From the NCBI GenBank assembly GCA_020833085.1, contig JAJHQY010000031.1:1-6469 (forward strand): a stretch of 6,469 bases of DNA. Reading direction: 5' to 3'. The position numbers and the translations under genes were made by a program. Below the pieces are notes generated by a model that saw only the letters and a program-made list of their open reading frames with translations, had not been told where the DNA came from and ran no database searches. This stretch comes from Desulfurococcaceae archaeon. Its GTDB lineage: Archaea > Thermoproteota > Thermoprotei_A > Sulfolobales > Desulfurococcaceae. Below, in pieces: positions 4,243 through 6,161 of this stretch. Every line of letters starts with the position of its first letter. Within the stretch, counting starts at the first letter, position 1.

Positions 4243-4869
4243 TTGAGTTCTAAACACGAATTCTACGTTACTAGGGTTCTCTACGAGAAGATTATTGGCG
4301 AGCAGATTAATAGGCTGAGCGAGCTGCAAGATCCGCGCATAGTTTACGTTACAGACCTCGTCTCCTGTACACACAAGTTCCACTTAAAGAAGGCATACCC
4401 CTGGCTCTCACTCGCGTTTGAACCAGCGGCAATACTGGGGACAATTGCCCACTTGGGTATCGGTCAGCTGTTGAGAGAGAGGGGTGTCGAGGTAGAAGTG
4501 GAGGTAGCGCGCGAAGTCATACTAGACGGTACGAGCTACCTCGTAAAAGGCCGCCTCGACGCTGTTGATAAGAGCAGTGGCATTGTAATTGAAGTTAAAA
4601 CGGCGAGGAGCGCTGTTAACGCGCCGCTTCAACACCACGTCAAGCAACTAAATATCTACCTCAATATGCTCAACTACGAGAGGGGCGTCCTAGTCTACAT
4701 AACACCGAGTAGAATAGTGGAGTTCGTAGTTACTAGAGAGCCTGTGAGCCTTGAGAGCGAGGTGAGAGACCTAGTTGAAGACAAGTACCACCCGAGATAT
4801 GAGTGGGAGTGTAAGTACTGCCAGTTCTCAAAGCTCTGTCCGTACTCCACATCGGCTCTCTCGAAGTAG
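4243..4869 (+). CDS. Cas4/RecB-like PD-(D/E)XK exonuclease with four-cysteine Fe-S cluster
   Basis: A 208-residue protein, the usual Cas4 size. It has all the family elements in order: first cluster cysteine in VSCTHKF (C42), the motif histidine GTIAHLG (H70), VKGRLDAVD (D106), IEVKTAR (E117, K119), QLNIY (Q135, Y139) and the C-terminal WECKYCQFSKLCPY cluster (C190, C193, C199). One N-terminal plus three C-terminal cysteines with CxxC-x5-C spacing is the layout of Cas4, AddB and Dna2 clusters; the characterised Sulfolobus Cas4 SSO0001 has nearly the same spacing. Known members are 5'-3' ssDNA exonucleases, and CRISPR-linked ones trim prespacers. No cas1, cas2 or repeat array is present here, so this is a stand-alone member that may serve DNA repair. 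Translation starts at TTG with GGGGTG 5 bases upstream. The gene ends at the sRNA-bearing gap. Confidence 0.87.
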   Translation: MSSKHEFYVTRVLYEKIIGEQINRLSELQDPRIVYVTDLVSCTHKFHLKKAYPWLSLAFEPAAILGTIAHLGIGQLLRERGVEVEVEVAREVILDGTSYLVKGRLDAVDKSSGIVIEVKTARSAVNAPLQHHVKQLNIYLNMLNYERGVLVYITPSRIVEFVVTREPVSLESEVRDLVEDKYHPRYEWECKYCQFSKLCPYSTSALSK

Positions 4870-4872
4870 GGA

Positions 4873-4880
4873 GTTTTAAG
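4873..4880 (+). promoter_or_regulatory. TATA-like element for the C/D sRNA
   Basis: GTTTTAAG lies just after the Cas4-like stop. Its centre is about 26 bases before 4903, the expected 5' end of the sRNA, a few bases ahead of the C box at 4909. This is the normal TATA-to-start distance in archaea. The motif is weak by itself; the spacing gives it value. Confidence 0.4.
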
Positions 4881-4884
4881 ACGC

Positions 4885-4889
4885 TTTTT
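4885..4889 (+). terminator. Oligo-T tract after the Cas4-like gene
   Basis: A run of five T 16 bases after the Cas4-like stop is the only T-run in the gap and could act as an archaeal T-tract terminator for the rightward genes. It is short and has no hairpin before it, so the assignment is tentative. Confidence 0.3.
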
Positions 4890-4903
4890 CACATATGCAT
4901 AGT

Positions 4904-4965
4904 GAGGCGTGATGAGCGCTCGGGTTGGCTGTAGGGAGTGATGAGGGTCTTGAGTTCTGAGTGGG
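4904..4965 (+). ncRNA. Box C/D guide sRNA, predicted to guide Cm34 of tRNA-Leu(CAA)
   Basis: In this intergenic stretch lie C box GTGATGA (4909-4915), a 13-base guide, degenerate D' box CTGT (4929-4932), a 5-base spacer, C' box GTGATGA (4938-4944), a 12-base guide and D box CTGA (4957-4960). Both C boxes fit RUGAUGA exactly. The 52-base C-to-D span and guide lengths of 12-13 are those of archaeal C/D sRNAs, which bind L7Ae, Nop5 and fibrillarin to direct ribose methylation. The D guide (gggtcttgagtt) is complementary to AACUCAAGACCC, which contains the leucine CAA anticodon loop CUCAAGA. The base paired five positions upstream of box D is C34. The D' guide (gcgctcgggttgg) would target CCAACCCGAGCGC; I could not name that RNA. 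The weak points are the CTGT D' box and a terminal stem of only about two pairs. Ends are approximate. A TATA-like element lies at 4873-4880. Confidence 0.72.
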
Positions 4966-4985
4966 GGGAGTAGAAGAGCTGCCTG

Positions 4986-5015
4986 TAGACTCCGCTCAGA
5001 GATTAGTGGAGTCTG
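4986..5015. repeat. Perfect-arm inverted repeat/hairpin between convergent genes
   Basis: AGACTCC (4987-4993) and GGAGTCT (5008-5014) are exact reverse complements. With a G-T wobble, two more inner pairs and an outer T-G wobble, the stem reaches 11 pairs around an 8-base loop (4997-5004). It starts 3 bases beyond the stop of the leftward FAD gene and about 25 bases after the sRNA D box. No T-run follows on either strand, so it is not a classical intrinsic terminator. It may mark or protect RNA 3' ends from either side, or belong to a longer form of the sRNA transcript. Confidence 0.5.
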
Positions 5016-5018
5016 ATA

Positions 5019-6161
5019 CTAGCCGACAATTGCTATTTCTCTTACTAGTTTACCGGTTTTGAATCTCTCTATCGTCAAGTTCTCGGCTACTGGTATACTG
5101 GGTCTCCCGCTGAGAATCCAGTCGGCTATTAGTAAGCCCGTGACGGGCCCCATCATTAAGCCGTGTCCACTAAAGCCGGCTGCTACGTAGAGATTTTCGT
5201 AGGGGGGGACAGGGCCGTACACGGGGTGGTGGTCCGGGGTCGTCTCGTAGTAGCCTATCCAGTAGCGTAGTATATTCACGTGTCGCAGTACCGGTATTAG
5301 CTCTACGAGAGGCTTAATAGTCGCGCTTATAGCGTCAACGCGGTGCGAGGTCAAGGGGGCTTCGTGAATATCGCTAATATTCCTCGCGAATATTAGACCT
5401 CCGTGTTCTACTTGTGTGACGTAAGGAGCGCCGGGAGTATCCCAGTCGATTATTAGTGCCGGTCTAATTATCTCTGCGTAGGGCTCTGTTATAACTGGGT
5501 GTCTCGTCTCGTCTACTACGGGGAACTCGACGTTCGCGGAGGCGAGGAGCTCGCGCGTTCCTCTACCACCAGCAGCGATCACGAAGACGTCGCCTTCGAC
5601 TTCACCTCTACTAGTAATAGCGCTCTTGACTCTGTAGCCGCTCACAGTAAGCCTGTTTACTCTAGTGTAGAAGTGGAAGACCACACCTAAAGATTTCAGC
5701 TTTAAGTAGAGCTTTACAATGTTCTCGAGGACGGGCATTCTACCAGCTGTTGGGTCGAAGAGAGCGCCCGCTACAATGCCCTTGTTTAATCCCGGCTGAA
5801 TTCTAGCCGCCTCGTCCCGGTCGAGTACTCTAGTGGGAACTCCGTACTCGTTGTGAAACGCGGCGAGTTTCTTAAAGACGTCGAGAGTCTCCCGCCTCCT
5901 AGCGATCCACAAGTAGCCAGTCTGCTTTAACTGCAATCCCAGTTCTTCCCTGTAAGCGAGCCAAAGTTCAATGCTCTTCTTCATTAGTATGACGTGTTCA
6001 GGTGACGTGAACGAGGAGCGGAAACACCCAATATTCCTCGTAGAGCCCCCAGACCCCAGATACCTCTCCTCTAAGACAACTACGTCTCTAATACCGCGCT
6101 TTAATAGCTCGTATGCCGTGAAGAGCCCACTAATACCCCCACCCACGATCACGACTCTCAC
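5019..6161 (-). CDS. FAD-dependent DAO-family dehydrogenase, beta subunit-like (proline/sarcosine type)
   Basis: A 380-residue flavoprotein of the D-amino-acid-oxidase superfamily that oxidises a secondary or primary amine of a small amino acid. Seen are the Rossmann dinucleotide motif VIVGGGISGL (4-13) with ribose-binding acid E31/E32, GSGGSTRNIGCFR (36-48) typical of sarcosine oxidase and proline dehydrogenase beta subunits, HPVITEP (221-227), VIAAGGRG (194-201), WIGYYETTPDHHPVYG (301-316) and the C-terminal FAD motif YVAAGFSGHGLMMGP (325-339). No signal peptide is evident. The start is GTG (6161-6159), overlapping the preceding [2Fe-2S] gene by 4 bases with GGTGGTGAG just upstream, so translation is coupled. 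Together they resemble the heteromultimeric dye-linked L-proline dehydrogenase of Thermococcales. Sarcosine, dimethylglycine, D-proline or hydroxyproline are alternative substrates. Confidence 0.83.
   Translation of the reverse strand: MRVVIVGGGISGLFTAYELLKRGIRDVVVLEERYLGSGGSTRNIGCFRSSFTSPEHVILMKKSIELWLAYREELGLQLKQTGYLWIARRRETLDVFKKLAAFHNEYGVPTRVLDRDEAARIQPGLNKGIVAGALFDPTAGRMPVLENIVKLYLKLKSLGVVFHFYTRVNRLTVSGYRVKSAITSRGEVEGDVFVIAAGGRGTRELLASANVEFPVVDETRHPVITEPYAEIIRPALIIDWDTPGAPYVTQVEHGGLIFARNISDIHEAPLTSHRVDAISATIKPLVELIPVLRHVNILRYWIGYYETTPDHHPVYGPVPPYENLYVAAGFSGHGLMMGPVTGLLIADWILSGRPSIPVAENLTIERFKTGKLVREIAIVG

Follow-up and report, generated by a model that had tools for sequence, protein, structure and literature searches.

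A conserved box C/D guide sRNA gene in a Desulfurococcaceae archaeon, with a predicted target at the wobble nucleotide of leucine tRNAs

The window, meaning the whole stretch of 6,469 nucleotides analysed here, contains between positions 329 and 6448 a NurA-like gene (-), then DHH-like, histone-deacetylase family, CYTH and Cas4-like genes (+), and finally genes for an FAD oxidoreductase and a SoxA3/BFD protein (-); the NurA and DHH matches are marginal. Two of these genes converge on a non-coding gap of 149 nt. Upstream lies the open reading frame of the Cas4-like PD-(D/E)XK nuclease (4243..4869, +), and downstream that of the FAD-dependent oxidoreductase of the DAO family (5019..6161, -). Inside this gap, where the initial annotation had placed a box C/D sRNA, we find a short element whose C box begins 39 nt after the Cas4-like stop codon, in the same sense. 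The Cas4-like gene is used here as a syntenic anchor and is not part of the sRNA. A comparison of positions 4243-5100 with plasmids gave no match.

The core of the element, from C box to D box, occupies 4909..4960 on the + strand, and all its parts are on that strand. The C box GTGATGA (4909..4915) is followed by a guide of 13 nt, GCGCTCGGGTTGG (4916..4928), a degenerate D' box CTGT (4929..4932), a spacer of 5 nt (4933-4937), the C' box GTGATGA (4938..4944), a second guide of 12 nt, GGGTCTTGAGTT (4945..4956), and the D box CTGA (4957..4960). With a few flanking bases the likely mature RNA would span 4904..4965, as judged from the box positions. Read directly from the sequence, the boxes, the CTGT, the guide lengths and the spacer are all at the coordinates first given for them. 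The element thus has the characters of an archaeal box C/D sRNA: RUGAUGA boxes C and C', a CUGA D box and a CUGA-like D' box in the right order, two guides of about the expected 10-13 nt, a short D'-C' spacer, and boxes that are conserved in relatives. Searched with a strict C-D'-C'-D pattern, the window gives a single hit, and 1000 dinucleotide shuffles of it give none.

A TATA-like element had also been proposed upstream. Such a motif, TTTTAAGA, is indeed present at 4874..4881 (+), beginning 35 nt before the C box, but it is borderline and the promoter claim is weak: when the motif was scored jointly at nine loci, 54 of 1000 shuffles were equally good.

Relatives were reached through the Cas4-like neighbour, which gave 80 loci of species genomes, the best 80 of 86. 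Directly behind this gene the element is found in seven of them (L001-L006 and L013), whose titles read Desulfurococcaceae archaeon, Thermosphaera sp. or Thermoproteota archaeon. When the window and the seven orthologues are aligned, the TGATGA of the C box, the D' guide core GCTCGGGTTG (4918-4927), the CTG of the D' box, the entire C' box, the D guide core GGTCTTGAGT and the CTGA of the D box are invariant in all eight rows, while the flanks diverge. L013 also keeps the convergent gap; here the identity with the window is 49 of 57 columns within the element and 46 of 146 beyond it. G124 contains one more close copy, the eighth, which was detected by a model only. A lack of conserved boxes or guides in close relatives had been named in the initial annotation as something that would speak against the sRNA, and the invariance across the eight rows is the opposite of that. 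Together with the shuffles it supports the box C/D reading, and from the sequence evidence we conclude that positions 4909-4960 (+) are a real, conserved box C/D guide sRNA gene.

Scoring with covariance models, one of the checks proposed for this element, gave matches below the cut-off. The Rfam models snoPyro_CD (RF00095) and sR3 (RF01133) share box order and size with the element and both align over all of it, but neither reaches the required score (20.2 bits against a gathering score of 45, E 1.1, and 14.7 against 41, E 2.9). The window and 20 relatives have no hit at or above the gathering score of any Rfam family, a result that concerns the families described in Rfam rather than the whole class. 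According to PMC7994747, C/D sRNAs are underrepresented in archaeal annotations. RNA-seq has given 128 C/D genes in Ignicoccus hospitalis and 61 in Sulfolobus acidocaldarius, which PMC4644070 lists as Desulfurococcales and Sulfolobales, respectively. Both sets may include orthologues of the present gene.

The D guide extends far beyond the close relatives. Of 214 genomes belonging to the order, 147 contain guide and D box together (GGTYTTGAGYNCTGA), and 2 contain the reversed pattern. With a model built from the eight elements, 47 genomes in a draw of 197 from the order have matches. In a draw from the phylum, 81 of 398 genomes contain the D-guide pattern. Of the 398, 327 were not among the genomes seen in the order, and of these 18 match, with 8 of 327 for the reversed pattern; a regular expression for the C' box finds none in these 18, and by eye two (L418, L419) are C/D-like. 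The exact form of the D guide thus appears to be mostly confined to the order. The matches gave 114 distinct flanks; the loci of 27 had been detected with the model and those of the other 87 with the pattern. A simple regular expression places a C-like box at most 10 nt upstream of the D guide in 82 of the 114 and a second one further up in 77. By eye, at least five flank rows (the second match of L337, L340 and L381-L383) resemble chance or coding matches.

Next, we consider what the D guide may pair with. Target tRNAs and rRNAs were taken from relatives, mainly from G005, where 37 of 39 tRNA genes were scored with spliced anticodon arms (L158 and L163 gave no arm). The best match of the window's D guide is tRNA-Leu(CAA), with 12 of 12 pairs, 10 of them Watson-Crick, and C34 at the N+5 position, opposite G4952. 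All 12 pairs are also formed with Leu(CAG), Leu(UAA) and Ser(CGA), with 9 Watson-Crick pairs each, and with Leu(UAG), with 8. Every one of these tRNAs is in register for N+5 at nucleotide 34, so that the complementarity expected of a guide is present for tRNA-Leu in the G005 set. Gln(UUG), Leu(GAG), Pro(CGG) and Pro(UGG) follow with 11 of 12 pairs; in Leu(GAG) the sole failing pair is a G-G clash at the N+5 base itself. By predicted pairing, then, the four pyrimidine-34 leucine tRNAs all fit the D guide, and Leu(CAA) is the best of them. The guide is not exclusive to leucine, since Ser(CGA) fits fully and the glutamine and proline tRNAs nearly so.

Duplex energies against the G005 rRNAs and tRNAs point to leucine tRNAs: none of 200 shuffled window guides is as good as the real one, whose best site is in Leu(CAG). 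For the D guide of G005 itself, 3 of 200 shuffles are as good. For the D guide we rejected a target in rRNA, since its duplexes with tRNA-Leu are better. A tRNA-Leu(CAA) gene with an identical mature anticodon arm is present in all nine near relatives, and tRNA-Leu(CAG) in eight of the nine, G006 being the one in which it was not found. In seven of the nine (L228, L220, L221, L224, L225, L231 and L227) a 13-19 nt intron interrupts the tRNA-Leu(CAA) gene behind nucleotide 37, while the genes of G001 and G008 (L222, L230) have none. Both Thermogladius tRNA-Leu(CAA) genes are called tRNA-Ser(CGA) by ARAGORN.

From these results we consider it very likely that a C/D sRNP guided by this sRNA 2'-O-methylates the wobble nucleotide of leucine tRNAs. 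As in other members of the family, the C/D and C'/D' motifs would form kink-turns bound by L7Ae, after which Nop5 and fibrillarin would join the transcribed sRNA. The D guide would then pair with nucleotides 30-41, which make up the anticodon loop and its neighbouring stem bases, and by the N+5 rule, as given in PMC4644070, the methyl group would be placed on nucleotide 34. The most likely sites are C34 of tRNA-Leu(CAA) and of tRNA-Leu(CAG); further possible sites are U34 of the UAA and UAG isoacceptors and C34 of tRNA-Ser(CGA). The D guide has U or G wherever these tRNAs differ, and a single guide could therefore read them all. For U34, however, the pair at N+5 would be G-U, whereas the N+5 rule is worded for Watson-Crick pairs, and this counts against the UAA and UAG targets. 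A 2'-O-methyl group has been reported at U34 of tRNA-Leu(UAG) in S. acidocaldarius (PMC7668247), and the sRNA is a candidate cause of it. In Pyrococcus furiosus the same paper lists C34 of tRNA-Leu(CAA) as predicted; Cm34 is reported there in "some tRNAs", among which Leu(CAA) is not specified.

Guides of this kind have precedents. According to the review PMC7994747, which cites D'Orval et al. 2001, Pyrococcus has C/D sRNAs directed at nucleotide 34, the first of the anticodon, in tRNA-Leu(CAA) and tRNA-Leu(UAA); the present element resembles them in its predicted guide to that nucleotide of leucine tRNAs. The arrangement differs: going by its description in that review, Pyrococcus uses four sRNAs for four tRNAs, while here one guide fits CAA, CAG, UAA and UAG as well as Ser(CGA). 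A second precedent, from the same review, is sR50, the C/D guide in the intron of tRNA-Trp that directs Cm34 and Um39. The two would share C/D-guided methylation of a tRNA nucleotide 34, predicted in our case, but sR50 sits in the intron of its own target, while the gene described here stands alone between genes. The accessible parts of PMC6313347, PMC3695527 and PMC12247713 mention no sRNA directed at the wobble nucleotide of a leucine tRNA. A search for the guide letters in open-licence main texts without supplements gave no archaeal title among the matches listed, and the guide may already have been published.

What we add here is the spread of the D guide through the order, its fit to Ser(CGA) as well as to all four leucine tRNAs with a pyrimidine at 34, and the recurring CTCGG half. 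For an archaeal order, the gene offers a concrete candidate for the guide behind wobble methylation of leucine tRNAs. If one guide does serve several isoacceptors, much of leucine decoding would hang on one small gene.

The D' guide is less easily interpreted. It has no significant target: shuffled guides reach equally good ones in 41 of 200 cases for G005 and in 51 of 200 for the window. Part of it is widely kept. The pentamer CTCGG (4919..4923, positions 10-6 from D') precedes the D guide in 68 of the 114 flanks, namely in 20 of the 27 found by the model, a biased set, and in 48 of the 87 found by the D-guide pattern; three scrambled 5-mers are found in 1-2 of 114. A C box was recognised in 108 of 117 rows, and in 60 of these 108 CTCGG stands two bases after it. 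A D'-like box, loosely defined, follows five bases after CTCGG in 58 of the 68 flanks, and the five bases between them vary. By eye, some members (L320, L321, L327, L328, L335 and similar rows) have CCGAG as their D' box, an exact complement to CTCGG in the guide. The D'-C' linkers in some of these rows are long and hairpin-like.

One explanation of the D' guide reverses the roles of the two guides: the main job of the sRNA would be rRNA methylation, at UAACCYGGGC in 23S (E. coli ~1350) or at UCAACCYGGG in 16S, and the D guide would be secondary. At either site the pairing extends over 10-11 positions and puts N+5 on a C, and the two sites are homologous in G005 and G002. Averaged over the CTCGG set, some rRNA sites also have a small advantage over tRNA-Leu (-14.42 for one 23S site, -13.69 for tRNA-Leu). 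These pairings are, however, no better than those many shuffled D' guides achieve, as seen above. Further, the D'-proximal half of the guide varies freely across the order and no single site pairs throughout; for 53 distinct CTCGG guides no common site was found in the rRNAs of G005 and G002 and 40 tRNA sequences. We regard a main role in rRNA methylation as a rather unlikely alternative. As an aside on these rRNAs, the 16S and 23S regions of G002 (L091 187-2757 and 2955-6379) measure 2571 and 3425 nt, compared with 1808 and 3098 nt in G005, which suggests rRNA introns in G002.

A different role for the D' guide would leave nucleotide 34 as the target of the D guide and let both halves act on the same tRNA. 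CTCGG complements CCGAG in the D arm of tRNA-Leu and tRNA-Ser, and the D' half could thus pair with nucleotides 11-15 of these class II tRNAs. The enrichment of CTCGG fits this, including that in the flanks found by the D guide alone, as does its regular distance to a D'-like box. In addition, GCGGGGGTGCCCGAGC is present in all 25 tRNA-Leu(CAA) genes listed (9 + 16), and when 56 CTCGG guides are scored against 21 tRNAs, the top six are all Leu or Ser; the tRNAs that pair fully with the D guide are Leu or Ser as well. On the other hand, CCGAG is just 5 nt long, and some rRNA sites score slightly higher on average. Position 5 of the guide is G, C, A or T while nucleotide C10 of the tRNA is constant, and there is therefore no covariation between the two, although it was looked for. 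The 34 D' guides without CTCGG (a group from which L337, L340 and L381-L383 were excluded) also rank Leu and Ser high, at places 1, 3, 4, 5, 7 and 9 of 21, and since these tRNAs are longer too, such ranks are weak evidence. All in all we think it improbable that the two guides share one tRNA.

The most far-reaching version would be that one order-wide sRNA uses a single wobble-tolerant guide to methylate nucleotide 34 in the four leucine tRNAs that have a pyrimidine there, and in Ser(CGA), while the second guide docks by CTCGG on the shared class II D arm, with both halves of the RNP on the same tRNA. This is a speculative proposal that we hold to be clearly improbable in full. The half-conserved D' guide does provide a way to ask whether a C/D RNP reads one tRNA at two places.

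The proximity of the element to the Cas4-like gene raises the question of whether it acts in the 3' UTR of that mRNA, as a regulatory L7Ae kink-turn and not as a free guide RNA. The short distance from the stop codon, the shared sense and the position kept in seven relatives would all agree with this. However, the D-guide pattern is present in 11 of the 80 Cas4 loci (the best 80 of 86), and only seven of these have it directly behind the gene in the usual arrangement. Three belong to Thermogladius; the related element there follows the Cas4-like gene but on the opposite strand, and its D' guide is changed (L009 10632-10686, L012 3522-3576 and L014 5204-5260), and in L008 the element is about 1.1 kb away. 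The guide is also conserved, which calls for a target in trans. A 3' UTR function is for these reasons very unlikely. That the element is a chance set of boxes or part of a protein-coding sequence is hardly conceivable: the motifs are short, the gap measures 149 nt and some D-guide matches elsewhere do look like chance, but the shuffles, the conserved boxes, the invariance of eight rows amid diverging flanks and the recurrence in most genomes of the order all contradict it.

Other C/D-like elements were seen in the course of the comparison. Several Cas4-relative loci contain such elements with different guides (L028 8659-8706, L031 5436-5484, L022 11656-11710, L040, L043, L045 and L051); their titles are Ignisphaera, Desulfurococcaceae, Pyrodictium and Archaeoglobaceae. 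In G106 and G027 there is a second C/D-like element (L257 1501-1549 and L264 1501-1550) with D' guide GGGCTCGATTGG and D guide GGTTTTGGGTG. Both genomes have the leucine guide too (L390 and L389), and the second element resembles a paralogue with an altered D guide. Finally, in L272 and L273 (G099 and G127) the GGTCTTGAGTG guide is seemingly in the first position, between C and D', and the second guide, behind C', contains AGCGGG, as if the order of the guides were swapped.
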